DNA of 56,112 bases from NCBI GenBank assembly GCA_016937855.1, contig JAFGVU010000180.1:1-56112 (forward strand). The letters are read 5' to 3'. The stretch is from Bacteroidales bacterium (lineage in GTDB: Bacteria > Bacteroidota > Bacteroidia > Bacteroidales > ML635J-15). The translations under genes were made by a program, and so were the position numbers. The notes beneath the pieces are model-generated. The model ran no database searches, had not been told where the DNA came from, and worked only from the letters and a program-made list of their open reading frames with translations. Below, piece after piece: positions 5,844 through 21,103 of the stretch (position 1 is the first letter of the stretch; each line of letters starts with the position of its first letter).

Positions 5844-5845
5844 TT

Positions 5846-6025
5846 GGTAAATTTTCGAGTAACTCGAAAATTTTGGTTGAAAAAATTTGAATTTTGATGA
5901 GTGCGCAGGCCTCCCCTAGGTCATTGCTCCGATGGTTATCGGAGGTCGAAATGAGGGATGCAGGGGCGCGTTGGGAAAAAAGAAAAAAAAGAAAATAGGT
6001 AAATTTTCGAGAAACTCGAAAATTT
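5846..6025 (+). repeat. Dispersed palindromic element, composite copy with GC-rich core
   Basis: Two hairpins bracket a core. The left hairpin (5849-5873) has AAATTTTCGAGT facing ACTCGAAAATTT; the right one (6001-6025) has AAATTTTCGAG, an AAA loop and CTCGAAAATTT, preceded by TAGGT. Between them is a GC-rich stretch (about 5901-5974) containing GCAGGCCTCCC, a smaller inner hairpin (CTCCGAT...ATCGGAG) and GATGCAGGGGCGCGTTGGGA. The same core and hairpin occur in the same order on the minus strand at 20988-21103. Base composition of the core is unlike the surrounding AT-rich DNA. The left hairpin starts 3 bases after the stop codon of the YD-like repeat gene. Confidence 0.8.
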
Positions 6026-6103
6026 GGGTTTACAAGGAAAAGAGATTGAGAAAATTAGGAAAGAAAAAAGGAAGTTAAAAAATAAGAAAACGAAATAAAA
6101 AAT

Positions 6104-7375
6104 ATGAAAATATTAGTTTTAGGTTCTGGAGGTAGAGAACATGCGATTACATGGAAGCTTAGTCAGAGTAAAAAGGCAGATAAGATTTTTGTAGCGCCTG
6201 GTAATCCCGGTACTGGCGAAATAGCTACAAATATTGCTATAAGTGTTAACGATTTTGATGCAATTGCTGATGAAGTTCGAAAAAACAATATCGACATGAT
6301 AGTTGTTGGACCCGAAGATCCTCTGGTAAACGGAATATGGGATTATTTTAATAACAGACCGGAATTTGCTCAATTAAAGGTTGTTGGTCCGTCTAAATAC
6401 GCGGCTCAGCTTGAGGGAAGTAAAGATTTTGCAAAGGAATTTATGCAAAAATTCAATATCCCTACGGCAGGATATTTTACAGCAAATAAAGACAATATTG
6501 AGGACGCGATTTTGTTTCTTAAAAAAGTTAGTTCACCATATGTTCTGAAAGCCGACGGATTAGCTGCCGGTAAAGGAGTTTTAATAATTGAAGACTTAAA
6601 CGAGGCCATTTCTGAACTAAAAAATATGCTTGACGGTAAATTCGGTGAGGCAAGTACAAAAGTTGTTATCGAAGAATTTCTCGATGGTGTAGAGTTATCC
6701 GTTTTTGTAATTACCGATGGCAAAGATTATGTATTATTACCCGAAGCCAAAGATTATAAACGAATTGGAGAAAATAATACAGGACTTAATACCGGTGGAA
6801 TGGGCGCAGTATCTCCAGTGCCGTTTTTTGATAAGGATTTTAGAGAAAAAGTTGTTTCTAAAATTGTTGAGCCTACTATAAATGGCTTGTATTCCGAAAA
6901 AATGGATTATGTCGGATTTGTCTTTTTTGGGCTGATAAATGTTAAAGGAGAACCTTTTGTAATTGAATATAATGTTAGAATGGGAGATCCTGAAACAGAG
7001 GTTGTTTTACCAAGATTAAAATCAGACCTTGTTGAGATTCTTGATGCTGCGTGTAATAGTAAACTTAGAGATATTATACCGGAATATCACTCTGATGCTG
7101 CGGCAACTGTTATGTTGGTTTCTGGTGGATATCCTGAAGATTATCAAAAAGGAAAAAAAATACAGGGGCTAGATATTCAGAATCAAAGCGTGGTATTCCA
7201 TGCCGGCACAACTCTTAAGGATGACGATATTTTTACTAATGGAGGTAGAGTTTTGGCCGTCAGCTCTTATGGTTTGGATATTTTTAAAGCTCTCGAAAAA
7301 TCTTACAATACTGCAAAACAAATATCTTTCGAAAATATGTACTATCGTAAAGATCTGGGATTCGACCTAAAATGA
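6104..7375 (+). CDS. purD: Phosphoribosylamine--glycine ligase (GAR synthetase)
   Basis: The enzyme joins phosphoribosylamine and glycine with ATP, the second step of purine synthesis, in the cytoplasm. The 423 residues match the usual PurD length. The N-terminus MKILVLGSGGREHAITWKLS is diagnostic, followed by an ATP-grasp domain with VLKADGLAAGKGV, the block NTGGMGAVSPVP, and EYNVRMGDPETEVVLPRL with the metal-binding Glu and Asn. The C-terminal block ends around TNGGRVLAVSSYG. The ATG at 6104 is the only start consistent with the family. Its stop overlaps the next gene's start by 4 bases (ATGA), so the two are translationally coupled. No other purine gene is nearby. Confidence 0.97.
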   Translation: MKILVLGSGGREHAITWKLSQSKKADKIFVAPGNPGTGEIATNIAISVNDFDAIADEVRKNNIDMIVVGPEDPLVNGIWDYFNNRPEFAQLKVVGPSKYAAQLEGSKDFAKEFMQKFNIPTAGYFTANKDNIEDAILFLKKVSSPYVLKADGLAAGKGVLIIEDLNEAISELKNMLDGKFGEASTKVVIEEFLDGVELSVFVITDGKDYVLLPEAKDYKRIGENNTGLNTGGMGAVSPVPFFDKDFREKVVSKIVEPTINGLYSEKMDYVGFVFFGLINVKGEPFVIEYNVRMGDPETEVVLPRLKSDLVEILDAACNSKLRDIIPEYHSDAAATVMLVSGGYPEDYQKGKKIQGLDIQNQSVVFHAGTTLKDDDIFTNGGRVLAVSSYGLDIFKALEKSYNTAKQISFENMYYRKDLGFDLK

Positions 7376-8364
7376 TAAAAATTCTAAAGGCAAATAATCC
7401 AATTAACTATTTGTTAATGTTTGGTCTTATGCTTTCGCTTTGGGCATTTAAATTCTATTACATGCCAACCGAGATAGAAGCATATATTCTAAAAAACTAT
7501 ATATTACCGGGATTTCCCGAGACAGTGTTTATGAAATACTTGTCGGCAGTTTTGTCTTTTGGTGTATATTATTTATTTGCATTGTTGATTATTAAATTTA
7601 ATGCAAATTTGATGATTGTTGAGAATGCATATCAGAGTGCAGGTGTTATTTTTGTTATGATGACAGGCTTTTTTATTAATTCTCAAAGAATTTTGCCGGA
7701 AACATTGGCATCTTTTACCCTTTTTATCGCTGTTATGCAAATATTTAATTCTTACCAAAAGATAAAGGCCGAATTAAATATTTTGGATGCATCAATTTTT
7801 ACAGCTTTAACTGTGATTTTAGTTCACAAACTTGTTTTTGTAATAGCTTTGGTTTTTATTGTGATGGTCATTATCAGACCTGTTAAAACCAAAGAAGTGT
7901 TGATTTATTTTACAGGTATCTTTTTTAGTTTTTTAGTTTTAGTCGCAATTGTTTGGCTAACAGGCGATATTGTTGAAGCATACGACATTGGTAAACAAGC
8001 CATGATATCAAAATTTGCAGAGTTCAAATACAATTCATTAAATTACATTGTTTTTGCTCCAATGATAATATTGGCTGCAATATCGGTATTTAGCCGATTT
8101 TCCTTAAGTCAGTCAAGAAAAGTTTCTGCCCGTAAATTTCAAAATGCTATAGTTTTTATTATTGTTTGCTTGACTGTATTTTTTGTCAGTCCTCATTCAA
8201 CAAATGAAGGAATTGTATTAATCTATCCTTGGGTTGCAATATTGTTATCCAATGTGATAATTAATGCAAGAAATGTTTATGCAAGTATTGTTTTTGTTGG
8301 CTTTATAGTTTCGCTTTATGCCGTGCATGTTTTGCAGATAGTTTTTTACTTGTCAATTTTTTAG
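7372..8364 (+). CDS. Polytopic inner-membrane protein downstream of purD (DUF6427-like)
   Basis: This 330-residue protein has about eight to ten hydrophobic segments and almost no soluble domain. It starts MIKILKANNPINYLLMFGLM, and contains a positively charged loop around SLSQSRKVSARK. The start overlaps the purD stop by 4 bases. From memory, it resembles the Bacteroidota membrane family DUF6427; that was not checked. No catalytic motif or transport signature was recognised, so a function is not assigned. Distribution of charged loops and aromatic residues would fit a membrane enzyme or flippase-like protein, but this is speculation. Confidence 0.75.
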   Translation: MIKILKANNPINYLLMFGLMLSLWAFKFYYMPTEIEAYILKNYILPGFPETVFMKYLSAVLSFGVYYLFALLIIKFNANLMIVENAYQSAGVIFVMMTGFFINSQRILPETLASFTLFIAVMQIFNSYQKIKAELNILDASIFTALTVILVHKLVFVIALVFIVMVIIRPVKTKEVLIYFTGIFFSFLVLVAIVWLTGDIVEAYDIGKQAMISKFAEFKYNSLNYIVFAPMIILAAISVFSRFSLSQSRKVSARKFQNAIVFIIVCLTVFFVSPHSTNEGIVLIYPWVAILLSNVIINARNVYASIVFVGFIVSLYAVHVLQIVFYLSIF

Positions 8365-8424
8365 ATATTTGCATATCTTTATAATGAAATTAAATAAAAT
8401 GGATGTTTTAACGTTAGTAATAAA

Positions 8425-9594
8425 GTGGTAAAAGGAAGGATATATAGGAAAAAGAGGAAATGGAAATTTCTTTTAGTCTTGTTTGCCTTTATCATAGGTG
8501 GATTGTCGTTGTGGTACACAAATACCTTGATGACAAAATTGTCATTAGAGGAGAGAAAAAAAATCGAACTTTGGGCAGAAGCAACTCAACAATTAATTAA
8601 TTCTGATCCTGAGCAAGATGTAAGTTTTTTGTTTGAGGTTTTAAGAAATAACGAAACAATTCCGGTAATTTTAGTCGATATGGAAGACAATATTTTGTCG
8701 TATCGAAATATTGACACAATAAAAATGGAAAATTCTGAATATCGTAAAAAGAAACTCGAAGAGTTTAAGACAAATCAAAAAGTTCATTTTGTTATAAAAA
8801 TGGAAGACGGCACACCTTTGAACAAGATATATTATTCCGATTCCCTTTTGTTAAAACAGCTTCAATACTATCCATATATTCAATTAGGAATTGTTTTTTT
8901 GTTTATTTTGATGGCATATTTTGCGTTTAGCATTTCGCGTAAAGCAGAGCAAGATCAAGTGTGGTTGGGGATGTCAAAAGAAACAGCTCATCAGTTGGGG
9001 ACTCCAATTTCTTCACTAATGGCATGGGTAGAAATGCTGAAGGAAACCGATAAAGGAACAGGATATTCTGCTGAATTAGAAAAGGACATAAATAGATTAG
9101 AAAAAATTGCTGCCAGATTTTCGAAAATTGGAAGTCAACCTCAACTTATACCAGTAGATTTGGCCGAAACAATAGAAAATTCTTTGGGATACTTAAAAAC
9201 AAGAGTGCCGAAAACAATTAATATTTTAACCGATTTTAGCAATGATGCAAAGCATGTAATACCATTAAATTCTGAGTTGTTTGAGTGGGTTATCGAAAAC
9301 ATTTGTAAAAATGCTGTCGATGCAATTGGCACACAGGGGATAATAACTGTTAAAATGGAAACACATGGGAAATATATCCACATTGATATTTCAGATACAG
9401 GAAAAGGGATCCCAAAATCTGAATTTAAAACGATTTTTAGCCCCGGATTTACAACAAAAAATCGTGGCTGGGGACTTGGTTTGTCTTTAGTTAAAAGAAT
9501 TGTAGAGCAATATCATGGAGGCAAAGTTTTTGTTAAACATTCCGAAATAGGTGTTGGAACAACCTTTAGAATTGTGTTAAATAAATCGAATTAA
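8425..9594 (+). CDS. Membrane sensor histidine kinase
   Basis: The 389-residue protein has two membrane segments (about residues 13-31 and 152-169) bracketing an extracytoplasmic domain of ~120 residues with no recognised sensor fold. The phosphoacceptor helix reads MSKETAHQLGTPISSL, with the histidine at about residue 189. The ATPase domain follows with an N box NICKNAVDAIG, G1 box DTGKGIP, F box GFTTKNRGWGLGLSL and G2 region GVGTTFRI. It would phosphorylate itself and then a response regulator. No regulator gene is adjacent, so it is an orphan kinase. The start is GTG at 8425: an in-frame TAA lies at 8395-8397 and no in-frame ATG precedes the first membrane helix. Confidence 0.9.
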   Translation: MVKGRIYRKKRKWKFLLVLFAFIIGGLSLWYTNTLMTKLSLEERKKIELWAEATQQLINSDPEQDVSFLFEVLRNNETIPVILVDMEDNILSYRNIDTIKMENSEYRKKKLEEFKTNQKVHFVIKMEDGTPLNKIYYSDSLLLKQLQYYPYIQLGIVFLFILMAYFAFSISRKAEQDQVWLGMSKETAHQLGTPISSLMAWVEMLKETDKGTGYSAELEKDINRLEKIAARFSKIGSQPQLIPVDLAETIENSLGYLKTRVPKTINILTDFSNDAKHVIPLNSELFEWVIENICKNAVDAIGTQGIITVKMETHGKYIHIDISDTGKGIPKSEFKTIFSPGFTTKNRGWGLGLSLVKRIVEQYHGGKVFVKHSEIGVGTTFRIVLNKSN

Positions 9595-9680
9595 CAATTC
9601 TGTATGCATTGGAAATAAAAGGAAGAATCTTAGTTGATGTTAATAATTCAATTTTTTTTCTCCTTTTAAAATTGTTTTTA

Positions 9681-9688
9681 TAACTTTG
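9681..9688 (+). promoter_or_regulatory. Bacteroidota -7 box TAACTTTG for the DUF177-rpmF-plsX-fabH operon
   Basis: TAACTTTG is an exact TAnnTTTG match, 22 bases before the GTG start of the DUF177 gene. The -33 position is only T-rich with no TTTG. It lies in the 116-base gap after the histidine kinase and is the only good promoter candidate for the four genes downstream. Confidence 0.6.
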
Positions 9689-9710
9689 CACGAAATTTTT
9701 TTTAGAAAAA

Positions 9711-10247
9711 GTGAACTATTTGAGTCAATATATTGTGCCTTTTAACGGTTTGGATAACAAAGAAAATCAGTTCGATTTTGTTGTTACTGATCAATTTTTT
9801 GATTGTTTTGAAGAAAATACAATAAAAGGTGGAAATATTGACGTAAGTTTGTTGCTGCTTAAGAAATCTAACTCATTACACTTAAAAATTCATTTAAAGG
9901 GTTTTGTGAAGTTGATTTGTGACAGATGCCTTGAATTATATAATCAAAGCATAGATTTCTCGGATACAATAGTTGCCGAATTTGGTGAAGAAACAAACTT
10001 TGATACAAATAGTGAAAGTGTTATTCTCGAAAAAGGCAAAACGGAGATTAATATTGCTCAGTTTATTTACGAGTTTGCTCATTTTGGATTACCTTTGCAA
10101 CACTATCATCCTGATACGGAATCAGGCGAGCCGGGATGTAGTTTAGAGATGTTAGAAATTTTGAGTAAGCATATAATAGATGAAGAAAGTGAAGTAATTG
10201 ACCCCAGATGGGAAAAATTACAAGAAATAAAAAAAAATACTAGGTAA
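9711..10247 (+). CDS. YceD/DUF177 family protein
   Basis: The 178-residue protein carries the DUF177 signature in the form CDRCLELY (cysteines at 70 and 73) and the late block HPDTESGEPGC. The gene is directly followed by rpmF, the classic yceD-rpmF-plsX-fabH arrangement, which supports the call. The family is linked to 23S rRNA maturation and ribosome function in other bacteria and chloroplasts; that role is carried over by homology. Translation probably begins at GTG 9711, just after the -7 box at 9681. The stop codon TAA lies inside a copy of the dispersed palindromic element (TAGGTAA...), so the extreme C-terminus (NTR) may have been shaped by that insertion. Confidence 0.85.
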   Translation: MNYLSQYIVPFNGLDNKENQFDFVVTDQFFDCFEENTIKGGNIDVSLLLLKKSNSLHLKIHLKGFVKLICDRCLELYNQSIDFSDTIVAEFGEETNFDTNSESVILEKGKTEINIAQFIYEFAHFGLPLQHYHPDTESGEPGCSLEMLEILSKHIIDEESEVIDPRWEKLQEIKKNTR

Positions 10248-10270
10248 TTTTTCGAGAAACTCAAAAATTT
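10243..10270 (+). repeat. Dispersed palindromic element, short degenerate copy
   Basis: TAGGTAATTTTTCGAG, AAA and CTCAAAAATTT correspond to the hairpin of the element at 6001-6025 with two mispaired positions in the stem. The copy supplies the stop codon of the DUF177 gene and sits between it and rpmF, so it would be in the transcribed spacer of the operon. No GC-rich core accompanies it. Confidence 0.7.
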
Positions 10271-10316
10271 GGTAAAAAAATAAAAAAAATAAAGTTTAAT
10301 TTTAAATTTATAAACG

Positions 10317-10508
10317 ATGGCACATCCAAAAAGAAAAACGTCAAAACAAAGAAAAAACAAACGTCGTACTCATTACAAAGCTGAATTTCTAACTTTAGCT
10401 AAATGTTCGAATTGTGGAACAACTGTTCAGTATCACCATGTATGTCCAGAGTGTGGATATTATAAAGGAAAACTTGCAATCGATAAGGAAGCAATTGCAG
10501 TCAACTAA
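10317..10508 (+). CDS. rpmF: Large-subunit ribosomal protein bL32
   Basis: The 63-residue basic protein begins MAHPKRKTSKQRKNKRRTHY, the expected L32 N-terminus, and holds a full zinc ribbon with cysteines at 30, 33, 43 and 46 (CSNC...CPEC). It is therefore the zinc-binding form of bL32, not the Cys-less paralogue. It lies between DUF177 and plsX, with 6 bases to plsX, so ribosome and phospholipid genes share one transcript. Confidence 0.98.
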   Translation: MAHPKRKTSKQRKNKRRTHYKAEFLTLAKCSNCGTTVQYHHVCPECGYYKGKLAIDKEAIAVN

Positions 10509-10514
10509 TAGTTG

Positions 10515-11468
10515 ATGAATATTGGTTTCGACATAATGGGGGGAGATTATGCTCCCGAGCAAGCATTAAAAGGTGCAGTTCTTGCTATTGGTGAGCTATC
10601 AGAAAACGATAAGCTTTTTCTGTTTGGCAATGCCAAGCTTATTCGTGAGTATTTCTCACAGCATGATGTTTCTCCAAAAAAATATGATATTGTCGATTGT
10701 AGTCAGACTATTGAAATGGGTGATGAGGCGATAAAAGCCTTTAAAGAGAAGCCTGATTCTAGCATTAGTAAAGGGTTTTATTTTTTGTCAAAGAATTTGA
10801 TTGACAGTTTTGCAAGCGCTGGTAATACAGGCGCTATGATGGTTGGAGCAATTCAAATTATTGGAGTTGGAAAAGGCATTTTGCGACCTGGAATATCTTC
10901 ATATTATCCTAACAATATGGGGAAAAATAATTTATTGCTAGATGTTGGGTTAAACCCCGAAACTAAACCCGAAGTCTTGGTTCAATATGCACACATGGGA
11001 GATTTATTTGCTCGAAATGTGATGTCTGTGAATAATCCAAAAATAGGGCTATTAAATATCGGAAGCGAAGAATCTAAGGGAACTGCTAGTATAAAACAAG
11101 CTTATAAATTGCTAAAAAGAGATAAAAAAATTAATTTTATTGGTAATATTGAGGGTGGTGATCTTCATGATGCCGATAAAGTTGATGTTATTGTTTGCAA
11201 TGGTTTTACTGGAAATATTGTACTAAAACAGGCAGAGTCTTTTTATAAACTTTTAAGTCAAAGGAATATTTCCGATTCTTATTTCGACAATTACAATTAT
11301 GAGAATTATGGGGGAACACCTGTTTTGGGCGTTCCTAAACCTGTAATAGTAGGACATGGTATAAGTAATGACATTGCATTAAAGAATATGATTTTATTGT
11401 CGAAAAAGCTTATCGAATCCGGAATTTCAGAAAAAATTACAAAATATTTTAGTTATGGCACAAATTAG
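10515..11468 (+). CDS. plsX: Phosphate acyltransferase PlsX
   Basis: PlsX converts acyl-ACP and phosphate to acyl-phosphate, the first committed step of membrane phospholipid synthesis in bacteria with PlsY. The 317-residue sequence shows the family's opening MNIGFDIMGGDYAPEQALKG, the SAGNTGAMMVGA block and the GLLNIGSEESKG and VIVCNGFTGNIVLK blocks. I chose ATG 10515 over the TTG at 10512 because the family starts exactly at this point. The 3' end overlaps fabH by 14 bases, indicating coupled translation. Confidence 0.96.
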   Translation: MNIGFDIMGGDYAPEQALKGAVLAIGELSENDKLFLFGNAKLIREYFSQHDVSPKKYDIVDCSQTIEMGDEAIKAFKEKPDSSISKGFYFLSKNLIDSFASAGNTGAMMVGAIQIIGVGKGILRPGISSYYPNNMGKNNLLLDVGLNPETKPEVLVQYAHMGDLFARNVMSVNNPKIGLLNIGSEESKGTASIKQAYKLLKRDKKINFIGNIEGGDLHDADKVDVIVCNGFTGNIVLKQAESFYKLLSQRNISDSYFDNYNYENYGGTPVLGVPKPVIVGHGISNDIALKNMILLSKKLIESGISEKITKYFSYGTN

Positions 11469-12465
11469 AGCTGCAATTACTGGTGTTGGTGGTTATGTAC
11501 CGCCTTATGTACTTACTAATGAAGAGTTGGCAAAAATGGTTGATACTTCCGATGAATGGATTATGGAGCGAATTGGTATTAGAGAACGCCATATCTTGCT
11601 TGAAGAAGGTAAAGCAACTTCTGATATGGCGACCGAAGCCGTGAAACAACTTTTAGAGAAAACAGGCACCACTGCAGATGAGGTTGATATGCTTATTTGT
11701 GGTGTTGTTACCCCCGATATGCAATTCCCGGCAACGGCAAATATTATTTGCGACAAAGTAGGAATTAAAAATGGGTTTGGATATGATATAAATGCAGGCT
11801 GTTCGAGTTTTCTTTTTGCGTTAATTACGGCATCCAAATTTGTTGAGAGTGGATCTCATCGTAAAGTTGTGGTCGTAGGAGCAGATAAAATGTCGTCGAT
11901 AGTTGACTATAACGACAGAAACACATCTCCCATTTTTGGAGATGGTGCCGGAGCCGTTTTACTTGAGCCGGATACAACAGGGCTTGGACTTGTGGACTCA
12001 ATAATGCATGTTGATGGTTCGGGAAGACAACACTTGCACCAAGTCGCTGGCGGCTCTTTAAGACCAGCAACTTTCGAAACAATTCTTCGTCGTCAACACT
12101 TTATTTATCAAGAAGGGCAACCTGTTTTTAAAGCAGCTGTCTCGAGTATGGCAGATGTTTCTGTTCGTATGATGGAAAGACATAATCTAACATCTGAGAC
12201 ATTAAAATATTTAGTTCCTCATCAAGCAAACATGAGAATTATCGAAGCTACTGCTCGACGAATGGGAATTCCTAAGGAACGTGTAATGCTTACAATTACA
12301 AAATATGGGAATACTACCTCTGCAACAATTCCTCTCTGCTTGTGGGAGTATGAAAACGAACTTAGAGTTGGCGATAATATAATTATTGCTACGTTTGGTG
12401 CAGGTTTCGCCTGGGGTTCTACTTATATCAAGTGGGCTTACGACGGAAGCAAATTTGCAAAATAA
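11455..12465 (+). CDS. fabH: 3-oxoacyl-ACP synthase III (KAS III)
   Basis: FabH condenses acetyl-CoA (or branched acyl-CoA) with malonyl-ACP to begin fatty acid synthesis. The 336 residues match the family. The catalytic triad is visible: Cys116 in YDINAGCSSFLFAL, His256 in VPHQANMRI and Asn286 in KYGNTTSA. The N-terminus AAITGVGGYVPPYVLTNEEL is also standard. The start lies inside the 3' end of plsX. It is the last gene of the operon, and a terminator-like hairpin follows 42 bases after the stop. Confidence 0.97.
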   Translation: MAQIRAAITGVGGYVPPYVLTNEELAKMVDTSDEWIMERIGIRERHILLEEGKATSDMATEAVKQLLEKTGTTADEVDMLICGVVTPDMQFPATANIICDKVGIKNGFGYDINAGCSSFLFALITASKFVESGSHRKVVVVGADKMSSIVDYNDRNTSPIFGDGAGAVLLEPDTTGLGLVDSIMHVDGSGRQHLHQVAGGSLRPATFETILRRQHFIYQEGQPVFKAAVSSMADVSVRMMERHNLTSETLKYLVPHQANMRIIEATARRMGIPKERVMLTITKYGNTTSATIPLCLWEYENELRVGDNIIIATFGAGFAWGSTYIKWAYDGSKFAK

Positions 12466-12467
12466 AA

Positions 12468-13268
12468 TTATAAGGAATATTTATTCCGAATAGATATTAT
12501 ATCGTTTAAAAGGCTCTGAGATTCGGGGCCTTTTTTGTAAATTTCCTGTAATTCAATCTTAATTTCAGAAATAATAGAGTCATCTTGTAAACATTCGAAA
12601 AGTTTATTTATTTCGCCAAGAATCTCAAAATGTTTTTTTAAAGCATCCACCAATAAAGCCTTATCTATTTGGTTTTGTGATGCAAGTCCCAAATATAAAC
12701 TCTCTGTCCATAAACCACTTAAAACCAATGCACTTATTCCATATTTTTCGTTAGACGACAGCATAATATTGCCGGCGTTTAGCAAACTATCGGTTATACG
12801 GAATAGCTCTTCGCGATTATTCAAATTAGACTCAATTAGCGGAACAACAGAATTAAACTCTTTAGACCCCACAGCAAGCTTTTGAGCTAAAGTATTTACA
12901 GCATTTAGATAATCCATACAAAGTTGAACTCTCTCAAAATGTCTGACATACCCCAAATCAGCAATATACATTCCAATAGCGAAAGCGGTTTGCTTGGAAC
13001 TTTGGTACATTTCGGCCGATGAGTAGGGCAATAGTAGTTTGGAGTCAAATCCGGCATGCATTATTGATATAGATTTGCTAACTTCATCGTAATTCGGGAT
13101 TTTTGCATAGATGCTGTCAAAACTCTCAAAATTATCAGCAAACTCAACATCTCTAAACTCTTTCTTCATTTTTTCATACTCCTCCGAGTTCACACATGAT
13201 AATATTAGTACCATCATTAAAGTGATGGTTAGAAAAAAAATATAGGAATTAAACTTTTCCAAATTCAT
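12468..13268 (-). CDS. Predicted lipoprotein, function unknown
   Basis: The 266-residue product begins with a hydrophobic segment ending in LILSC (Cys25), a lipobox, so it is probably a lipid-anchored periplasmic or outer-membrane protein. The rest is mostly alpha-helical, with a central block IGMYIADLGYVRHFERVQ and ALVLSGLWTESLYLGL. Similar Tyr- and Ala-rich helical lipoproteins occur widely in Bacteroidota, but I do not recognise a named family. It is convergent with fabH, with only 2 bases between the two stop codons. A hairpin with a T-run for fabH lies inside its last ~25 codons (12508-12536). Confidence 0.75.
   Translation of the reverse strand: MNLEKFNSYIFFLTITLMMVLILSCVNSEEYEKMKKEFRDVEFADNFESFDSIYAKIPNYDEVSKSISIMHAGFDSKLLLPYSSAEMYQSSKQTAFAIGMYIADLGYVRHFERVQLCMDYLNAVNTLAQKLAVGSKEFNSVVPLIESNLNNREELFRITDSLLNAGNIMLSSNEKYGISALVLSGLWTESLYLGLASQNQIDKALLVDALKKHFEILGEINKLFECLQDDSIISEIKIELQEIYKKGPESQSLLNDIISIRNKYSL
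12508..12536 (+). terminator. Probable intrinsic terminator of the fabH operon
   Basis: AAAAGGCTC (12508-12516) pairs with GGGCCTTTT (12526-12534), a 9-bp stem with one G-T pair, followed by further T residues. It is 42 bases past the fabH stop. Unusually, it sits entirely within the coding sequence of the convergent lipoprotein gene. Confidence 0.65.
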
Positions 13269-13345
13269 ATTTCAAATCTAATTCATATTTTTCAATTACG
13301 CAAATTAAGAAATTTTAATTTTAGTTAAATATTAGTAAATGAGCA

Positions 13346-16324
13346 TCAATCAATTTCAATTTCATCTATGAACAGCCATGAATCAAATCCTGGACTTAAG
13401 TGCCAGTCGGGCAGAGGACCATAATTTTCTGCTACAACCTTTACATAACGTCCAGTAAGGTCATTTGCCGGAAATGTAAATTCTTGTATTTTAACCTCTT
13501 CGTCTTTATCGCTGAGTTGTGATGTCATTTCGTAAACCAAAGAATATTTATATCCGTCTTTTGATACATAGTAGCTTACTTTTTTAGGGAAAAATATCCA
13601 CGATTTAGTATCCTGAAGAAAGCGAGCGTTAATTTTTTCGATTGGTTTAATTTCAAGTAGGTCAACAATAGCTTCAAAGTCCTGTCCTCTGTACCCTTGC
13701 CATAATCCATTTCTAAACCAATTAGAGCCTTTAACAAAGTCGATTAGCGCATTGTCGCCACCTGCTGAGTATTGTTGGCTGTATTCGCTTTTAATTTCGA
13801 TTGTACGCAAATCCGGTATTTGAAAATATTCGGCAACTATAGTTTTACTTTTATTTTTGCCGGGCGAAACTGCATAAGCATGCAGAGTTTCATTTTTATT
13901 AATCTTGATAGGTTTTGTGTATTTTATAGGATTTTTATCGATCTCTCCATCTAATGAATAAAATATTTCAGCATTTTTATCAGCGCAGAATAAGCCAATT
14001 GATATTGAATCGTGAAAAGATTTTTGTTGATAATCGGTATAAGGAACAGGAGTAATTTGATTGTCGGTTATTATTGATTGATAAATGTCTTTTGCTTGGG
14101 TTCCACGTTCTTTGTTTGGCTCAGAGCCCATGTAAAACTCGAGTCTTCCGCCTTGCATTATTTGTTTATGAGAGATATAGTTTTTTGTGTATTCGCGACC
14201 GTTAAGTTTAATCGATTGTACATAGATGTTCTTTTTGCTGTTATCGTGAGCAATAATTGTAAATTGACGATGATTTTCCAATTGGATTATTGCTGTGTCG
14301 AAAACCGGACTGCCAAAATCGTAAACTCCATTTGCAGGATTAACAGGATAAAAACCTAATGAACTTAACACATACCACGATGACATTTGTCCACAATCTT
14401 CGTTACCGCACAACCCGTCAGGTTTTTCGGAGTATTGTTCGCTCATAATTTTGCGAACCATTTCCTGAGTTTTCCATGGTTTACCACAGTAATTATACAA
14501 ATATGCCATGTGATGACTAGGTTCATTTCCGTGTGCATATTGTCCAATTAAGCCGGTAATATCAACTTGATGTGTACCCGATGTTTGACTTTCTGCTGCA
14601 AACATTTCGTCGAGTTTGGAGCAAAAGTTTTCGTTACCTCCATGCATTTCGATAAACATAAGTATGTCATGAGGGACGTAAAAGCTGTATTGCCAGGAGT
14701 TTGCTTCTGTAAAATTGTAGTTTACTTCTGTTGGATCAAATGGATATTGCCATGCGGCATTTATTTTTGCCTGCATAAAACCATTGCCGGGATTAAAAAC
14801 ATTTTTGTAGTATTGTGATCTTTCAATATAATAGTTATACTCTTCAATATTTCCTGTTTCTTTCGCAAACATTGCAATACACCAATCATCATAAGCATAT
14901 TCGAGTGCTTTTGAAACCGATTCGTGCTCTAAATCAAGTGGGATATAACCGTATTTATCGAATTCGGGCTTTCCTAAACGGTCTTCTGTCGCAGCAGAAA
15001 TCATTGCTTCAAGTGCTAATTTTGAATCAAAATCTCTAATTCCTTTAAAGTAAGCGTCAACAATTACAGGTACCGAGTGGTAGCCAATCATACACATAGT
15101 TTCGTTTGCTGCGAGTTCCCAAACAGGCAACTGTCCTCCGTATTTATATTGATCGAGGAATGTTTTAATAAAATCGAGAGTTCTTTTTTGCTGTACGATA
15201 GTAAATAAAGGATGTGTTGCTCTGTAAGTGTCCCAAAGCGAAAACACTGTATATGTGTCGTGATCTTTTGATTGATGAATCTTTAAATCTGTTCCACGAA
15301 AGTTTCCATCTACATCAGAAAAAATATTTGGTGCAATAAAACTATGATAAAGAGCTGTGTAAAAAACTGTTTGCTCCTCAGCACTTGCTCCATAAACTAA
15401 AATTTTGCTTAACTCATGGTCCCATTGAGCAGTAGCATTTTGACGAACTTCTTCAAAATTCCACCCTGAAATTTCACTTTCGAGATTCTTAATTGCTCCT
15501 TGGGTACTAACTGCCGATAAGCCAACTTTTACTAGCACTTGTTTAGAGTCAGTGGGCTTAATTTTAAAGATTATTTTTGAATACTCATCTTTTTTAATTG
15601 ACTGATTGTCAGGTGATTGGGAATTAGTTTCCGCTTTATTGTGCAATTTGTAATAAATAACTTCAACCGGCCTGTTAAAATCCAATGCAAAATACTGATA
15701 TTGATTTTCTGCCCATGATTGAGAACGTCTTAAGCCAACAAATCTGGTTTCGCTAACTTGCTCAACATAACACTCTAAAAGTTTGTCGCGATGTTCTAAA
15801 TCTAAAAGAATGTATTGATTGTCGGTTTTTGGGAAACTATATTTATGAAAACCAACTCTTCTACTGGTTGTTAGCTCAACATCGATATTATAATCTTTAA
15901 GAAATACTGAATAAAATCCGGGTTTCGAAATTACAGAAGATTTTTCGTAAGAGCTAGTAAAATTATCATTTATTAAATCTATTTCATTTTTGACAAATGG
16001 CATTAAAAGAATGTCCGCATAATCGGCTACACCTGTTCCGCTTAAATGTGTATGCGAGAAACCGTAAATTATTGAGTCGCTGTAATGAAAACCGGAACAA
16101 CCATCCCAGCCTTCGAGACGAGTATCCGGACTTAGCTGCACCATTCCAAACGGTACTGTTGCTCCCGGGTAGGTATGTCCGTGAAAATCGGTACCAATAT
16201 GTGTATCAACCTGACTTGACCTTGGTTCAACTTTAAACTTTTCGTATTTGTGAAAAAATAAAGCGTAAATAAGAGTCGCAGCAAATACTATTGCAAGGCT
16301 TAATGGGAAAATGATTCTTCGCAT
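13346..16324 (-). CDS. GH92 alpha-mannosidase with C-terminal CHB_HEX-like and F5/8-like domains
   Basis: GH92 enzymes are calcium-dependent exo-acting alpha-mannosidases that trim host or fungal mannans and N-glycans. This 992-residue protein begins with a signal-anchor-like segment (residues 1-24). Near the N-terminus is HIGTDFHGHTYPGATVPFG and SHTHLSGTGVADY, then SLWDTYRATHPLFTIVQ and GNEPSHHMAYLYNYCGK. The catalytic-region signature GNEDCGQMSSWYVLSSLGF is around residue 640. The family core ends near residue 755. Residues ~785-835 (FYSLDGEIDKNPIKYTKPI) look like the chitobiase C-terminal/Fn3-associated domain, and the last ~150 residues resemble a discoidin-like module. A -7-like box TATTTTTG lies 15 bases upstream (16340-16347), without a matching -33. 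It stands apart from any SusC/SusD pair. Confidence 0.92.
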   Translation of the reverse strand: MRRIIFPLSLAIVFAATLIYALFFHKYEKFKVEPRSSQVDTHIGTDFHGHTYPGATVPFGMVQLSPDTRLEGWDGCSGFHYSDSIIYGFSHTHLSGTGVADYADILLMPFVKNEIDLINDNFTSSYEKSSVISKPGFYSVFLKDYNIDVELTTSRRVGFHKYSFPKTDNQYILLDLEHRDKLLECYVEQVSETRFVGLRRSQSWAENQYQYFALDFNRPVEVIYYKLHNKAETNSQSPDNQSIKKDEYSKIIFKIKPTDSKQVLVKVGLSAVSTQGAIKNLESEISGWNFEEVRQNATAQWDHELSKILVYGASAEEQTVFYTALYHSFIAPNIFSDVDGNFRGTDLKIHQSKDHDTYTVFSLWDTYRATHPLFTIVQQKRTLDFIKTFLDQYKYGGQLPVWELAANETMCMIGYHSVPVIVDAYFKGIRDFDSKLALEAMISAATEDRLGKPEFDKYGYIPLDLEHESVSKALEYAYDDWCIAMFAKETGNIEEYNYYIERSQYYKNVFNPGNGFMQAKINAAWQYPFDPTEVNYNFTEANSWQYSFYVPHDILMFIEMHGGNENFCSKLDEMFAAESQTSGTHQVDITGLIGQYAHGNEPSHHMAYLYNYCGKPWKTQEMVRKIMSEQYSEKPDGLCGNEDCGQMSSWYVLSSLGFYPVNPANGVYDFGSPVFDTAIIQLENHRQFTIIAHDNSKKNIYVQSIKLNGREYTKNYISHKQIMQGGRLEFYMGSEPNKERGTQAKDIYQSIITDNQITPVPYTDYQQKSFHDSISIGLFCADKNAEIFYSLDGEIDKNPIKYTKPIKINKNETLHAYAVSPGKNKSKTIVAEYFQIPDLRTIEIKSEYSQQYSAGGDNALIDFVKGSNWFRNGLWQGYRGQDFEAIVDLLEIKPIEKINARFLQDTKSWIFFPKKVSYYVSKDGYKYSLVYEMTSQLSDKDEEVKIQEFTFPANDLTGRYVKVVAENYGPLPDWHLSPGFDSWLFIDEIEID

Positions 16325-16564
16325 AGTTTATGTTTTTTACAAAAATACGTGATTTTATTAAAACATCAGTTTTATTTGCAAAGCATTATTTCAGAATCGT
16401 ATATTTTTGTTGTGAGAATAAAAAATCTAACAAAAAAGTGAAGATATGAATAAAGGGACAGTGATTTTCGAAGGCGTTATATATATGTTCCTTGGGGAGA
16501 GTTAAAGCTTTTTACCAAACTTACAAAATCCCACCTAATCTGCCAAAAATCCTGAGGCTTTATT

Positions 16565-19500
16565 TTAGAAAAATGCTCTTAATTGTACACCACCGGTATG
16601 AATTATCTCGGTATCTTCTGATTTTCGAGCATTATAATTTAGATTTATTTGTAAGCCATTTGCCAATTGTCGCTGAAAGTTTATTGACCATGTTAAGTTT
16701 GAGCCGGGCATAAATCCCTGAAGCATTTCGTAGGCAATAGCGGTGTTTGTTGCGGAATTATATGAATAGTAAATATAATTAAACGTTGCACTAAAAGCTC
16801 CTTTTGTTACAGAGCTTAACCGATACTCAAACCCGGCATTATGCGAATCAAGAATTTCGCCACCACCGTTATTTTCTTTAGTTTCATATTCGTACATAAG
16901 TGTTAGACGATTGTTTAAGTTTGGTTGTATGCTTAACTGAGATTCGTTTGTGAGAGATTCGATCTGATAGTCTTTATTTGAAAAAAACTCCGATTTGTAT
17001 AGCTTGTCTCCTATGCTGGAGTTGTTTCTAATGCTAACAACTTTGCCGATATTATATCTTACCAAAAAATTATGATTAAAGTTTGTTCGTGTGTCGAAAC
17101 CGGAAACAAGTAAGATTTTACTACTATTTGATTGAAGGATGTAGTCGATACCAAAGCCGGGTTTGCCCCGATTAAACGAAAAACTATTGCGAAAGGATGA
17201 GTTTAAATTTACAAGTTGTGCTTCATCAATTCCTGAGTTAAAAGGATTTGCGTAATCAATAATGTCTGATGAAGTGTTTTTTTGTGAAATACGATATGCA
17301 AATTGATTAGAAAATCGACTGATAAGTTTTTTTACTCCTGTTTTTGAACGCCAAATCACATCCGGACTAATTTTAAGACTCTGGTTAAACTGATTTGTGT
17401 ATGTTTTAATATAGTCTGTCGTTGGAATCAATACTCTGATAAAATTTGCCTGATCAATAAAATTTGCAATTTCAAACTCATCCAATTCCTGAATTCCATT
17501 TTCGTTGTAATCTGTCCATGCAAAAACTCCTTGTCCCGGAGCAACTTCGATATATGAAAACTCAGTTTTACGTTCAAGTCCTGATCCAATTTCGTAGAGG
17601 CTGGTAGATGTAATTACACCTTTTAATAATCTAAAAGTGTATTCTGCTTTTCCTGTCATATTGTTCTCGGAACTTCCGTCATACAAACTGGTGTCCTGAA
17701 CGTGTAATTTCCGGAAATTGAAAACTGCGGTAAAACGAGAATTAGAATTAGAAATTAAATTGGTACCAATGCCAAAATCTTGGGCAATTGTAGAGTTTAT
17801 GAGTTTGTTGTTTGAAGGAAGATCATCGTCACGATATTTATAATTGATAAAGAAATTGTTTTTTGAACTGTCGGCACTGGAAATATATCCTTCGAATTGA
17901 TTGAAGTTAAAACTGTTTAGAGTGATGCTGTCGCTTGTCTGACTTGTCCAGATATTACGTTCGGATAACTCTTTTATGCCAAATTCAAATATGCCTAATG
18001 TTTTGGATATCAAAGCATTATGGCGAAAAAAATTTGTTTGATAAAGATTGGTTTCCGATTTAAGTAAACTTGCTTTCCCATTTATTTTCCAGGTGCCGAA
18101 CCGATAGTTGGCAGATGCATGGTTTTGTATGCCCGAATATTCGTTGCCTCTGTCGATAAGCGATGTCCCAATACTTGAGCTCCCGTGATTTTTATTAACA
18201 AAAAACAGATTTCCGTTAATAAGATTCTCATTGCTCTGAGGGTAAATAGACTCAAGGTTCCAATCTCTTGTAAATTCTGTTTCCCGAAAGTTTTCAATTG
18301 CCTGAAAGCTATTTTGAAGAAAGCCATAATTTACGATTAGGCCGAGATTTGATTTTTCGGTTTTTAATAGATCTCTGCTAATGCCAAATTTTGCTGCATA
18401 TCCGTTATCGTCGTTTGAGTCGAGTTTTGAGAAAGTATTTAAATCTGTTTTACTATAGGCTATTTCAAAGTTTATTGTGGTTTTATCGCCTATTTCGGAT
18501 AATCCACCAAAGCTTACTACTTGGTTTTTCTTGGGAGTAACAATTTGTTTTAGTGGAATGTAGTCGCCTTGTGGCACACCGTTATCAGGTGCAACCCATT
18601 GATAAACACGTCCGTTTGCAGCAGAAACGCCTTTTATGTAGTTTCCTTTATTTGCGCCCACAAACGAAAAACTGATGCGGTAAAAAGCAGAATCGGGATT
18701 AGTGTTATAAACAAAAACAGAGTCGTAAACAATGCCCTCAACGACTGTGTCAATAAGTGCGTATCTAATTTCGCCGGCATCAAATAAAAGGCTGTCATAT
18801 CCGGGTATTACAGCCATATCTAAATTGTCGCCAATACTTGCTAGCAAAGCTCTGTCTTCTGTCGAAATTGTTTGATCGAAGGGCTGATTTTTATTATCGC
18901 TTTCGTCGTAAACATTTAACCAAAACTCGCTATTATCAAACTTTATAGAATTAGATGTAGTAACTAAAAATCTTGTATAGTTACGATCGGAGTATTCAAA
19001 TTCTACAATTATTCTTTTGTCTTTATTTATAGGTTGGTTTGCAGTAAATACTATCTCGCCAAGATTGTAATCAATAATATAATCGTTTTCGGTACCTCGG
19101 GTTAATAACATTCCATCAATATATACTTTTTCAGTTCCGGCAAGAACAACAATAAAAGTTTCGTTATTTGAGCCGGTTAATTTGTATGGTCCTTGATTTC
19201 CTTCTATTGCTTTTATTTCCTGTCTTTGTAGTTTCCCTTTTGCTACTGCACCACTAACCGACGTGTTGATTTCAATATTTTTTTCTTTTTTGTTAATCAA
19301 ATTTGTCTGGTATTTTATTTCGGCGCCTTGAGCTTTTTTGTAGTAATTTAAAAAATATCCTTTTGGTTTCTTTAGTTCAAAATCTCCGGCTATTACAGAA
19401 AAGTTTTCATTGTATAGTTTAATAAAGACTTTGTCGAATTCCTGCAATTGCTGAGATGTACCATCGGGTTGTATCGGTATGTTATTGTCACTGACTGCTG

Positions 19501-20032
19501 CAGTAATATTTAGATCGTTGTTAAGTTTTCCGTCTAATTGTAGGTTTAAACTGCTGTTTACAATAACATCCTGAGCATTCCCAAAGCTAATGCCACGACT
19601 AATACTACCTTTTCGCGAAAGACTGCTTTGAGAAAAATTCGACTTATAATCGTCTTTGCTAAAAATGAATTGATACTCAGATTCTTCATCAGCGCCATCA
19701 AGAAAATCTGATTTGTTAAACAGGCTGACGGATTCGAAAAAATTTATCGGAAATGTTTTAAATTTTATAATTATAGTTTCGTAGTTTGGTATGGAATTAA
19801 AAACAATTGATGATTTTTCGAAATTAAATGTATAGTCTAAATCAGTAATAATATTATTGTTTTTGTCGGTAACAATAATGGAGTTTTGCACAACACTAAG
19901 CGAGTGTAAAAAAATTGTGTCGTTTGAGGGTGTTATTTCAATTGTATGCAGATTTATTAAACCATCATCATGCTGTGCAGACATCAACAGGCTGATAACT
20001 AATAAGAATGATATTAAAGCATACTTTTTCAA
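16565..20032 (-). CDS. Large outer-membrane beta-barrel-type protein with a SprA-like motif
   Basis: The 1155-residue product has a signal peptide ending LLMSAQ and a C-terminus GVQLRAFF, a typical barrel-terminal aromatic. Residues ~135-205 hold RKGSISRGISFGNAQDV, LNLQLDGKLNNDLNITAAVS and IPIQPDGTSQQLQEFDKVFI. This block resembles one found in the T9SS translocon protein SprA, from memory. The remainder is a long series of amphipathic strands. SprA itself is about twice this length, so this is at most a relative. Start: TTG at 20032 is used because the signal peptide begins directly there, an in-frame TAA lies 15 bases upstream and the first in-frame ATG is inside the signal peptide. A promoter (20048-20077) lies just upstream. 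Substrate unknown. Confidence 0.75.
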   Translation of the reverse strand: MKKYALISFLLVISLLMSAQHDDGLINLHTIEITPSNDTIFLHSLSVVQNSIIVTDKNNNIITDLDYTFNFEKSSIVFNSIPNYETIIIKFKTFPINFFESVSLFNKSDFLDGADEESEYQFIFSKDDYKSNFSQSSLSRKGSISRGISFGNAQDVIVNSSLNLQLDGKLNNDLNITAAVSDNNIPIQPDGTSQQLQEFDKVFIKLYNENFSVIAGDFELKKPKGYFLNYYKKAQGAEIKYQTNLINKKEKNIEINTSVSGAVAKGKLQRQEIKAIEGNQGPYKLTGSNNETFIVVLAGTEKVYIDGMLLTRGTENDYIIDYNLGEIVFTANQPINKDKRIIVEFEYSDRNYTRFLVTTSNSIKFDNSEFWLNVYDESDNKNQPFDQTISTEDRALLASIGDNLDMAVIPGYDSLLFDAGEIRYALIDTVVEGIVYDSVFVYNTNPDSAFYRISFSFVGANKGNYIKGVSAANGRVYQWVAPDNGVPQGDYIPLKQIVTPKKNQVVSFGGLSEIGDKTTINFEIAYSKTDLNTFSKLDSNDDNGYAAKFGISRDLLKTEKSNLGLIVNYGFLQNSFQAIENFRETEFTRDWNLESIYPQSNENLINGNLFFVNKNHGSSSIGTSLIDRGNEYSGIQNHASANYRFGTWKINGKASLLKSETNLYQTNFFRHNALISKTLGIFEFGIKELSERNIWTSQTSDSITLNSFNFNQFEGYISSADSSKNNFFINYKYRDDDLPSNNKLINSTIAQDFGIGTNLISNSNSRFTAVFNFRKLHVQDTSLYDGSSENNMTGKAEYTFRLLKGVITSTSLYEIGSGLERKTEFSYIEVAPGQGVFAWTDYNENGIQELDEFEIANFIDQANFIRVLIPTTDYIKTYTNQFNQSLKISPDVIWRSKTGVKKLISRFSNQFAYRISQKNTSSDIIDYANPFNSGIDEAQLVNLNSSFRNSFSFNRGKPGFGIDYILQSNSSKILLVSGFDTRTNFNHNFLVRYNIGKVVSIRNNSSIGDKLYKSEFFSNKDYQIESLTNESQLSIQPNLNNRLTLMYEYETKENNGGGEILDSHNAGFEYRLSSVTKGAFSATFNYIYYSYNSATNTAIAYEMLQGFMPGSNLTWSINFQRQLANGLQINLNYNARKSEDTEIIHTGGVQLRAFF

Positions 20033-20047
20033 TAAACGATTTTAATA

Positions 20048-20077
20048 CAAAAATAAACAATATTAGTAATAATCAAA
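20048..20077 (-). promoter_or_regulatory. Bacteroidota promoter (TTTG-N18-TATTTTTG) for the large barrel gene
   Basis: On the minus strand TTTG (20077-20074) is followed by 18 bases and TATTTTTG (20055-20048). The start codon TTG is 15 bases further. The leader would be under 10 bases, which fits leader-poor transcripts. Spacing is one short of the N19 seen at three other genes here. Confidence 0.6.
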
Positions 20078-20111
20078 TCTGGGGTAATAACGTATTTAAA
20101 AGATGTTTGTT

Positions 20112-20975
20112 TTATCCTTTTCTTCTAAGACGAACAAAATAACCGTGATTTATTTCGTTGCCACCGGAGCTGAGTCCAAAAATGGTTTCCTGAAAATCAA
20201 TAATAAAGTCAGAGAAATATGTGAGAATTAGACGATGAATAAATTTATCGTTTATTGAATGTGAGTACAAATTCATGATAACAAATGAATCTTTTTCAAG
20301 TATCTGAGTGAGCTTGGTTAGTAAATCATCTATTTTATTTTCGAGTATCCATTTTTCTTTATTAGTGCCGGTTCCAATAGAAGGTGGATCGAGGATAATT
20401 CCATTATATTTATTTCCGCGTTTCAATTCTCGTTCAACAAATTTGAGCGCATCTTCAGTAATACAACGAAGATTATGATATCCTGAATTTTGAGCGTTTC
20501 GTTTTGTCCAATCAACAACTTTTTTAATAGAATCGACATGTGTTACGATTTCACAGAATGGCGCTGCTGCAACGCTAGCTAGCCCTGTATATCCAAAAAG
20601 GTTTAAAAAGCTTTGATAATTGTTTTCGTTGCATATTTTACTAATATAAATCCAATTAAGTACTTGTTCGGGAAAAATCCCTATATGTTTGGAACTTGTA
20701 AGAGCTAATTCGGCGCGGATGTTTATTTTACCTGATTCGAATTTAATTTGCCATTTGTCGGGAATTTCGCGATAGATTTTCCAAGTTCCAGAATTTTTGG
20801 AGGTTTCTATAAATTCTGCATTTGCAAGTTTGCGCCATTCCGATTCGGTTAATTTAGGTTTTTCAATTGCTGTAATTTCCGGGCGGATTAGAACAATTTC
20901 ACCAAATCGCTCGAGTTTTTGTGAATTACCGCAATCGATAAGTTCGTAATCGTGGAATATTGAGTTAATTTTCAT
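20112..20975 (-). CDS. Class I SAM methyltransferase, RlmI/COG1092-like
   Basis: The fold shows motif I NLFGYTGLASVAAA, an acidic VDSIKKVVDWTKRNAQNSG that binds SAM ribose, and the catalytic-side motif LDPPSIGTGTNKEKW; these match the COG1092 family of rRNA m5C methyltransferases such as RlmI. The family's N-terminal PUA domain is not obvious. The reading frame stays open upstream to an ATG at 21065, but residues 1-28 of that longer version (ending with AKQ) are the in-frame translation of a dispersed repeat element, so I start at ATG 20975 (288 residues; 20981 is also possible). The gene lies 36 bases beyond the YhbP-like gene's stop when the longer start is used and shares its transcript. 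Confidence 0.85.
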   Translation of the reverse strand: MKINSIFHDYELIDCGNSQKLERFGEIVLIRPEITAIEKPKLTESEWRKLANAEFIETSKNSGTWKIYREIPDKWQIKFESGKINIRAELALTSSKHIGIFPEQVLNWIYISKICNENNYQSFLNLFGYTGLASVAAAPFCEIVTHVDSIKKVVDWTKRNAQNSGYHNLRCITEDALKFVERELKRGNKYNGIILDPPSIGTGTNKEKWILENKIDDLLTKLTQILEKDSFVIMNLYSHSINDKFIHRLILTYFSDFIIDFQETIFGLSSGGNEINHGYFVRLRRKG

Positions 20976-20987
20976 TTTCATTTGCTT

Positions 20988-21103
20988 TGCTATTTTTCCG
21001 CTTTTTTTCTCTTTTTTATTTCCCAACGCGCCCCTGCGTCCCTGAAGGGAGGCCTTCGCGTTCATTAACTTTCAAATTTTCGAGTTTCTGGAAAATTTAC
21101 CTA
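20988..21103 (-). repeat. Dispersed palindromic element, second copy with GC-rich core
   Basis: On the minus strand this reads TAGGTAAATTTTCCAG, AAA, CTCGAAAATTT (hairpin 21098-21074), then GCGAAGGCCTCCC and GACGCAGGGGCGCGTTGGGA with a following A-rich tract. The order and orientation match the copy at 5846-6025, where the core reads GCAGGCCTCCC and GATGCAGGGGCGCGTTGGGA. It is shorter, lacks the inner CTCCGAT hairpin and has one hairpin only. The first TAG (21103-21101) is the stop codon of the YhbP-like gene, and the core runs into the frame of the methyltransferase gene. Confidence 0.8.

Follow-up and report, generated by a model that had tools for sequence, protein, structure and literature searches.

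The window analysed here is the whole of contig JAFGVU010000180.1 (C49; 56,112 bases), part of the draft genome of an uncultured Bacteroidales bacterium (4.44 Mb in 264 contigs, 95% complete; G000, hereafter the own genome). It carries an AT-rich hairpin with the apex CGAG-WAA-CTCG, which we call REP-A, and a GC-rich core that is one half of a palindrome, which we call REP-B. Our analysis makes it probable that REP-A is the repeat of a RAYT system (RAYT, REP-associated tyrosine transposase, a Y1 HUH protein; REP, repetitive extragenic palindrome), and that a composite of REP-A with half of REP-B has spread as dispersed copies and arrays, mostly in sense behind stop codons. We compared the own genome with 60 others, 25 of them of the same genus. 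Two models served for searches, one of the whole unit (R1) and one of the core alone (R2).

REP-A is a genome-wide family of mostly intergenic hairpins

The original prediction described five hairpins in the window that share a motif and a complementary arm, and all five are found in their places (Table 1). The motif TAGGTAATTTTTCGAG, allowing up to 3 mismatches, matches 6 times in the window against 1.26 expected, and 0 of 100 shuffles reach 6. A REP-like element spread through the genome had also been proposed, to be given up if few further copies turned up; the copies are many. R1 finds 99 places in the own genome at E<=1, 30 of them at E<=1e-5. The hairpin pattern matches 88 times forward and 81 times in reverse, its reversed control 0 times and once; as the pattern is nearly palindromic, one site may count twice. 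The 19-nucleotide (nt) core pattern occurs 11 times with up to 2 mismatches. Chance similarity among AT-rich hairpins, for which nothing speaks beyond the AT-rich background, is refuted by this copy number and by the shuffle and reversed-pattern controls, and we give it practically no credence. At the gathering score, Rfam has 0 matches in the window and thus no known structured RNA.

The hairpin reads AGGT-AAATTTTCGAG-WAA-CTCGAAAATTT. In a set of 98 copies, the stem is immediately preceded by TAGGT 45 times, by AAGGT 12 times and by AAGGA 9 times; AAA forms the loop 73 times and TAA 17 times. The GG and the AA of the loop belonged to the search pattern. The foot is mostly AGG[TA]; the GT[AG]G foot of canonical GTAG REPs is lacking, so REP-A is not a canonical REP. 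The boundaries of the element are A-rich and not sharp. To place the copies, we used 62 merged stretches (226 kb) around listed matches, which cover part of the listed places, and called open reading frames (ORFs) mechanically. They hold 63 REP-A clusters, only 3 of which lie inside an ORF of >=100 amino acids (aa). REP-A is therefore, as a REP should be, a short palindrome in many, mostly intergenic copies. The inverted pairs or alternating orientation that mark a bacterial interspersed mosaic element (BIME) or a REPIN (a pair of inverted REPs) are missing: no inverted REP-A pairs were seen, and 0 of 27 multi-hairpin clusters are mixed, all being head-to-tail. One locus (L129, G000:C234:9414-9738) consists of seven head-to-tail REP-A hairpins with a period of ~47 nt, no core, and the linker GTTTTATAGAAAAGAAGTA and variants.

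An intact RAYT is bordered by hairpins of the same apex

We found Y1_Tnp matches at four places in the own genome. The match on contig C86 lies above the cut-off; the RAYT there is intact, measures 220 aa, and scores 98.2 bits with NCBIfam NF047646 against a cut-off of 80. It is bordered on both sides by same-apex hairpins, GGACAATTTCGAG-WAA-CTCGAAATTGG and variants, and is thus the matching RAYT-type transposase that the original prediction had suggested looking for. H96 and H98 of the HxH motif and Y179, the tyrosine of YIH.NP, are invariant across the 4 proteins of its clade; its match by sequence to a solved structure is weak (4er8, E 0.16). The nearest apex hairpins are inverted around the RAYT, with a TTA or TTT loop upstream and TAA downstream (G000, G010, G003 and G019), and the outer copies around the G000 RAYT are direct, not inverted. 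Set against the key motifs of TnpAREP/RAYT subclass 2.6, the own RAYT (L014) has SHVH for NH[LIV]H, WI for WQ and YIHYNP for YIH[QN]NP; L077 and L078 have WQ and YIHNNP, with SH in place of NH. REP-A behaves as a RAYT-linked REP of the atypical Bacteroidota kind, its testable features fitting with the exception of the key motifs of the protein.

Relatives of the RAYT are present in 28 of the 60 genomes at E<=0.001, the nearest in G010 (55% identity), G003 (51%) and G019 (45%). The RAYTs of these three genomes have CGAG-NNN-CTCG hairpins on both sides, with unlike lower stems, and RAYTs farther off carry other apices. On a tree of 26 RAYTs with 8 apex labels, assigned by eye, the apex changes 7 times, which is the minimum; shuffled labels need 16.4 changes on average, and 0 of 200 shuffles are as low. 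The GATT label alone takes 3 changes. A tree of 106 RAYTs, 71 of them labelled, gives 14 changes for 14 labels, where 13 is the minimum; shuffling raises the mean to 34.1, and none of 200 shuffles is as low, with the caveat that near-copies favour label clustering. Eighty of its rows come from named records; 35 rows without a shared apex were kept unlabelled, loci with several shared apices including GATT were called GATT, and L224 received its label by hand. Since the named CGAG rows, three in number, are the records of G010, G003 and G019, the CGAG clade comprises four distinct proteins. By script, the apical 4 bp and the loop length are common to both sides in 45 of the 80 named RAYT loci, and the apex GATT-3 nt-AATC, the commonest there, stands on both sides in 27 of these 80 Bacteroidota loci (L226-L301).

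The apex CGAGWAACTCG occurs 45 times in G000, 43 in G010 and 21 in G019, genomes that hold this RAYT clade, and at most 8 times in 56 other genomes; the reversed apex control is low in G000, G010, G019, G001 and G020 but reaches 50 in G046. A group 3 RAYT enzyme recognises a perfect palindrome with a 3-nt loop, in which loop and foot are important (PMC8266576), and by analogy this fits recognition of the apex by the RAYT here. For the RAYTs of Bacteroidota, which are poorly described, these data suggest that recognition follows a readable code, in which the apex follows the protein tree and the lower stem drifts.

Other loci of this kind came to light. A second intact RAYT of the own genome (L013, G000:C74:1059-1613) has a different hairpin on both sides, CACGATTGCATCGTG / CACACGATTGCATCGTGTGG and variants; since it has its own hairpin kind, the genome holds at least two RAYT/REP systems. 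An IS200-type TnpA (L012, G000:C163; 95 bits to PF01797) has TTATTCGCTACGCGAAAACAG repeats on both sides. In G010, an array of eight ~139-nt units (L106, G010:C107:10300-12000) carries the CGAG-TAA-CTCG apex inside an outer TCACAC/GTGTGA stem. A record titled as a metagenome-assembled genome of Bifidobacterium breve (L247) bears a Bacteroidota-type RAYT and is probably a mis-binned contig.

The GC-rich core is half of a palindrome associated with DUF559 genes

Hairpin and core had been taken for one family, with two cores alike in order and in a composition far from that of the AT-rich surroundings. The composition does stand apart (GC content 0.62 in the long core and 0.72 in the short core, against 0.345 in the window). 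Both cores follow their hairpin in the same order, and the extra loop hairpin is present only in the first. The short core reads GCGCGCAGGCCTCCC-TTCA-GGGACGCAGGGGCGCGNNGG, and the long form, with a second hairpin in its loop, occurs 6 times in the genome. At E<=0.01, the own genome has 32 R2 places. G020, G019 and G001 have a single weak place apiece, and 36 further genomes have none. R2 places without REP-A nearby lie on C125, C229 and C251 and, by pattern, also on C118 and at one place on C51. On C125, C229 and C251 and in G020, G019 and G001, the core forms with its own inverted copy a self-folding dimer of ~85 nt, and inverted pairs are confined to this REP-B source dimer. The core is thus half of a separate, DUF559-linked palindrome and no fixed part of the hairpin element, which leaves a single family of hairpin plus core unsupported. 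The exact core pattern returns 0 records in genome_contigs, which may leave out records close to the genome of the window, and 0 in viral_contigs; with up to 3 mismatches, the own genome alone of 26 in the genus has it. As a mover of REP-B, the RAYT was rejected: no R2 match lies near any of the four Y1_Tnp places of the own genome.

The own genome has two DUF559 (PF04480) genes, on C229 and C251, both intact frames of 133 aa with the REP-B palindrome on both sides. The flanks of the C251 gene share 71 nt at 97% identity, and those of the C229 gene 49 nt at 94%, cut there by the contig end. In G019, the sole DUF559 match has a dimer upstream and a decayed dimer downstream. Across the own genome and its relatives, 7 of 9 standalone DUF559 genes with an available locus have repeats common to both flanks (up to 700 nt on each side, E<=1e-4), a count that leaves out one broken gene and two fragments of G043; clean controls give 0 of 34 and 0 of 49 ORFs. 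Shared flank repeats are absent from the DUF559 gene of G042 and one of G043, from two DUF559 matches in long frames, and from six further matches. ORFs near RAYTs were discarded as a control (33 of 128 with flanking repeats), because REPs surround RAYTs. Loci of the own genome and relatives in which DUF559 stands between inverted-dimer palindrome copies include L357 (3431-3832), L358 (337-738) and L331.

We also examined DUF559 genes from a plasmid collection. Among 12 of 40 records, picked by hand, 5 have shared repeats, 4 of which are hairpin repeats; in one of these, the record of Pseudanabaena galeata, the annotation places DUF559 within a longer coding sequence. Of the 42 sides of 21 DUF559 genes, 17 have inverted repeats with CCC/GGG arms of >=10 nt, vs 24 of 240 control sides (p = 4.8e-6); both sides have them in 3/21 DUF559 genes vs 0/120 controls, the controls being 120 other genes from five plasmid stretches. 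This measure misses two DUF559 genes that have flanking repeats by the shared-flank test (C229 and G021). Double-hairpin CCC..GGG inverted dimers were seen beside DUF559 in Bacteroidota, Cyanobacteria, Deinococcus and some proteobacteria. In cyanobacteria and on Deinococcus plasmids, some DUF559 genes have GC-rich double hairpins of a similar kind next to them. In Sphingomonas parapaucimobilis replicons (L370, L373), DUF559 lies inside the conserved-looking orders sufB-DUF559-sufC and GatB/YqeY-DUF559-dnaG, with CCCC..GGGG hairpins near its edges, as if inserted. No DUF559 relatives were found in viral_contigs, and a limited literature search, which cannot show absence, found nothing that links DUF559 to repeats or mobility.

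Within this group the association of DUF559 with the palindrome is strong; outside the group it is suggestive. The findings point to DUF559, a nuclease family that is uncharacterised, as the partner of a class of palindromes. DUF559 genes might be the autonomous partners of a second, RAYT-independent REP-like class made of double-hairpin CCC..GGG inverted dimers. The window element could then be a chimera with one hairpin per class, a portable 3'-end cassette that lands in sense at stops and supplies a stop and a translation-damping hairpin. We put this forward tentatively, as possible rather than probable.

Composite units join REP-A with half of REP-B

The units in the window are chimeras of REP-A and a REP-B half. 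The 32 R2 places of the own genome comprise 5 standalone dimer halves and 27 others on 18 contigs, some contig ends of which may be the same place. Two of the 27 cores run into a contig end, leaving 25 that can be tested, and 19 of these have REP-A before and <=75 nt behind the core in the same orientation (the upstream hairpin on C223 is poor, and C31 is cut upstream). The short core of the window has no REP-A behind it. Composite units also stand in tandem at ~96-nt spacing, as in the four units on C162. A miniature inverted-repeat transposable element (MITE) of a classical DNA transposon would likewise be short, non-coding and dispersed. However, the hairpins at the unit ends are direct, not terminal inverted repeats (TIRs), which leaves the proposed MITE-like nature unsupported and makes a MITE very improbable.

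Arrays could also arise by passive amplification, through slippage and recombination together with RAYT relics; the dispersal would then be old, and nothing would move the composite. The uniform head-to-tail order of the clusters would suit such a process, as would the many contigs that end in clusters (C162, C31, C26, C124, C233, C235, C236 and C140). Against this, composites lie on those 18 contigs, and R1 at E<=0.001 finds 0 places in the 60 other genomes, under stricter filters than in the own genome; with no composite in these genomes, the dispersal looks recent in the lineage of the window. We consider passive amplification quite unlikely.

Most REP-A clusters lie in sense directly behind stop codons

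An upstream ORF of >=100 aa was available for 57 of the 63 clusters, and it lies on the strand of the cluster in 42 cases and on the opposite strand in 15 (p = 4.6e-4). For 35 of the 57 clusters, the start is at most 20 nt away from the end of the upstream gene (span -5 to +15 nt), and all 35 are in sense. A constant orientation to genes, which the original prediction had raised for checking, thus holds for these close copies, and not for all clusters. The stop codon lies partly or wholly within the element in 7 clusters. A null of random placement over own gap and orientation gives 5.5 expected cases vs 28 of 47 observed, with a maximum of 16 in 200,000 simulations. No antisense gene end lies within 20 nt downstream among 54 neighbours, and in seven convergent pairs the copy is 7-30 nt from the sense gene and 74-795 nt from the other.

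We identified one empty site. Between yceD and rpmF, the gap measures 12-24 nt in 13 relatives vs 70 nt after the REP-A-borne stop in the own genome, where REP-A supplies the yceD stop; in these relatives, the position at which yceD ends differs by no more than a few residues. The comparison leaves out two relatives without a detectable rpmF and four more distant loci.

This placement bears on the view that the hairpin is a host-selected 3'-end element, not mobile, kept behind genes to end transcription, protect mRNA or damp translation. The concentration of sense copies at stops, far above the null, favours it, and E. coli REPs <16 nt from a stop reduce translation, according to earlier work cited in PMC12306157. 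Against it, the copies are nearly identical over 80 nt, form head-to-tail arrays as well as composites with an unrelated palindrome, and have their hairpin kind in common with RAYT flanks; one site is empty in 13 relatives, and no T run follows the hairpin in the copies inspected. We think host selection alone unlikely. The stop-codon bias was rejected as a rule of the RAYT clade by G010; it is missing there, so it is special to the lineage of the window. With sense placement behind stops in one species and not in its relative, target choice and selection can be told apart by strain comparison.

A proposed mechanism and its difficulties

In the mechanism that we favour, REP-A is most likely moved by the RAYT, and the composite with REP-A at both ends would be a passenger form. 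The Y1 HUH transposase would recognise a folded single strand, chiefly by the apex CGAG-WAA-CTCG with its 3-nt loop, and copy or move REP-A. One REP-A lineage in this species would have acquired half of REP-B, whose full inverted dimers flank DUF559 nuclease genes, yielding a composite in the order REP-A, REP-B half, A-rich linker and REP-A, with direct ends reminiscent of those that bound IS200/IS605 elements on the left and right. This composite may have moved as a unit and spread as dispersed copies plus head-to-tail arrays. Most gene-following copies would then come to lie in sense right behind a stop, where the foot (TAG or AGG-TAA) can supply the stop itself, and the hairpin might damp translation, sitting where E. 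coli REPs are reported to do so.

Several observations weigh against this mechanism. No transposition was observed. The flanks of the C86 RAYT carry the sister subfamily GGACAATTTCGAG, not the TAGGTAAATTTTCGAG form, and REP-A is without a GT[AG]G foot. The CGAG clade has a support of 15 in the larger tree, though 92 in the smaller, and the RAYT L224, which is 49% identical and closer than that of G019, adjoins this clade but has another apex. G001 and G020 have apex repeats (17 and 10) and no RAYT of this clade was found in them, and G003 has the RAYT yet only 3 apex matches. In the core alignment, 95.5% of cells are paired, with no compensatory pair changes, and 500 of 500 shuffles reach every measure, which lends a conserved RNA structure of the core no support. 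No hairpin stands behind 6 of the 25 testable cores, and at least 6 of the 19 cores with hairpins on both sides (three on C162, two on C234, one on C233) share theirs with a neighbour, the right hairpin of one unit also being the left hairpin of the following one. The 15 clusters with an opposite-strand upstream gene depart from the sense rule, and G010 is without bias: in 20 stretches around listed apex matches, with 21 clusters, the 19 clusters with an upstream gene are divided into 10 on the same and 9 on the opposite strand, and 2 of the 19 lie within 25 nt in sense.

Features of the window

The hairpins, cores and adjoining genes of the window are collected in Table 1. Apart from these, a tandem array of ~19 repeats, each of 228 nt and in part with a superperiod of 456 nt, fills positions 50500-56112 up to the contig end and probably belongs to a long repetitive coding sequence.

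Table 1 REP-A hairpins, REP-B half-palindromes and adjoining genes in the 56,112-base window
Feature	Position	Strand	Remark
ORF of 282 aa, no Pfam match	4995..5843	+	stop codon ends 2 nt before GG of REP-A
REP-A hairpin (TTGGTAAATTTTCGAGTAACTCGAAAATTT)	5844..5873	+	left end of composite unit
GC-rich core, REP-B half-palindrome, long form	5901..5974	+	R2 47.2 bits
Extra hairpin in loop of long core (GGTCATTGCTCCGAT..ATCGGAGGTCGAAATGA)	5919..5954	+	6 genome copies at <=3 mismatches
REP-A hairpin	5996..6026	+	right end of composite unit, oriented as the left one
purD (GARS)	6104..7375	+	downstream of composite unit
yceD-like ORF (PF02620)	9711..10247	+	stop TAA inside REP-A foot (AGGTAA)
Single REP-A hairpin between yceD and rpmF	10241..10270	+	site without hairpin in 13 related genomes
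GC-rich core, REP-B half-palindrome, short form	21023..21061	-	R2 60 bits
REP-A hairpin upstream of short core	21074..21103	-	foot overlaps stop of ORF 21101-21532 (-)
ORF of 143 aa, PNPOx_N (PF01243)	21101..21532	-	29 bits vs cut-off 28.1
Degenerate single REP-A hairpin (3' arm degenerate)	~30022..30051	-	37 nt past stop of ORF 30087-32696 (-)

Comparison with known systems

The ends of IS200/IS605 elements and group 3 REPs resemble the present element in having a hairpin plus a 5' guide. In a group 3 REP, a 3-nt loop matters for recognition (PMC8266576). Unlike IS200/IS605, the composite has no enzyme gene between its ends.

The original prediction knew of no such family for this group. This is unsupported because PMC6006769 describes Bacteroidetes RAYTs with 'atypical secondary structures', which form TnpAREP/RAYT subclass 2.6 (Bertels group 5). 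Like the REPtrons of this subclass (PMC6006769), the present system belongs to Bacteroidota, has a Y1 HUH protein with an SS motif in its tail, and has a gene bordered by hairpins without GT[AG]G, copies of which lie elsewhere in the genome. Unlike them, its own RAYT deviates at one residue in each key motif. Neither the joining to a second palindrome nor the sense placement close to stops is described in the available part of PMC6006769.

That REPs can lie close behind genes and that their feet can serve as stop codons is already known (PMC3733652). Like REP-A, GTAG REPs are mostly intergenic, behind genes and often <20 bp from ORF ends, and their foot often gives a TAG stop (PMC3733652). They differ in the foot (GT[AG]G vs mostly AGG[TA] here), in their common head-head and tail-tail dimers, where REP-A has no mixed cluster, and in that their convergent copies adjoin both ORF ends (PMC3733652), whereas here we find 0 antisense copies within 20 nt of a gene end. 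Strict sense orientation is not among the features described for GTAG REPs in the available part of that paper.

Composites of REPs with other palindromes also have precedents. In the composite TIRs of Pseudomonas RAYTs, a degenerate GTAG-1 unit is joined to an unrelated stem-loop (PMC3733652), and here, too, a REP attached to an unrelated stem-loop has been multiplied. The Pseudomonas composites are inverted repeats around RAYT genes, whereas the second part here is half of a DUF559-linked palindrome. The hybrid BIMEs of Stenotrophomonas resemble our arrays in combining repeats of two REP families; in those BIMEs, unlike here, both families are RAYT-owned and their orientation alternates (PMC2817692).

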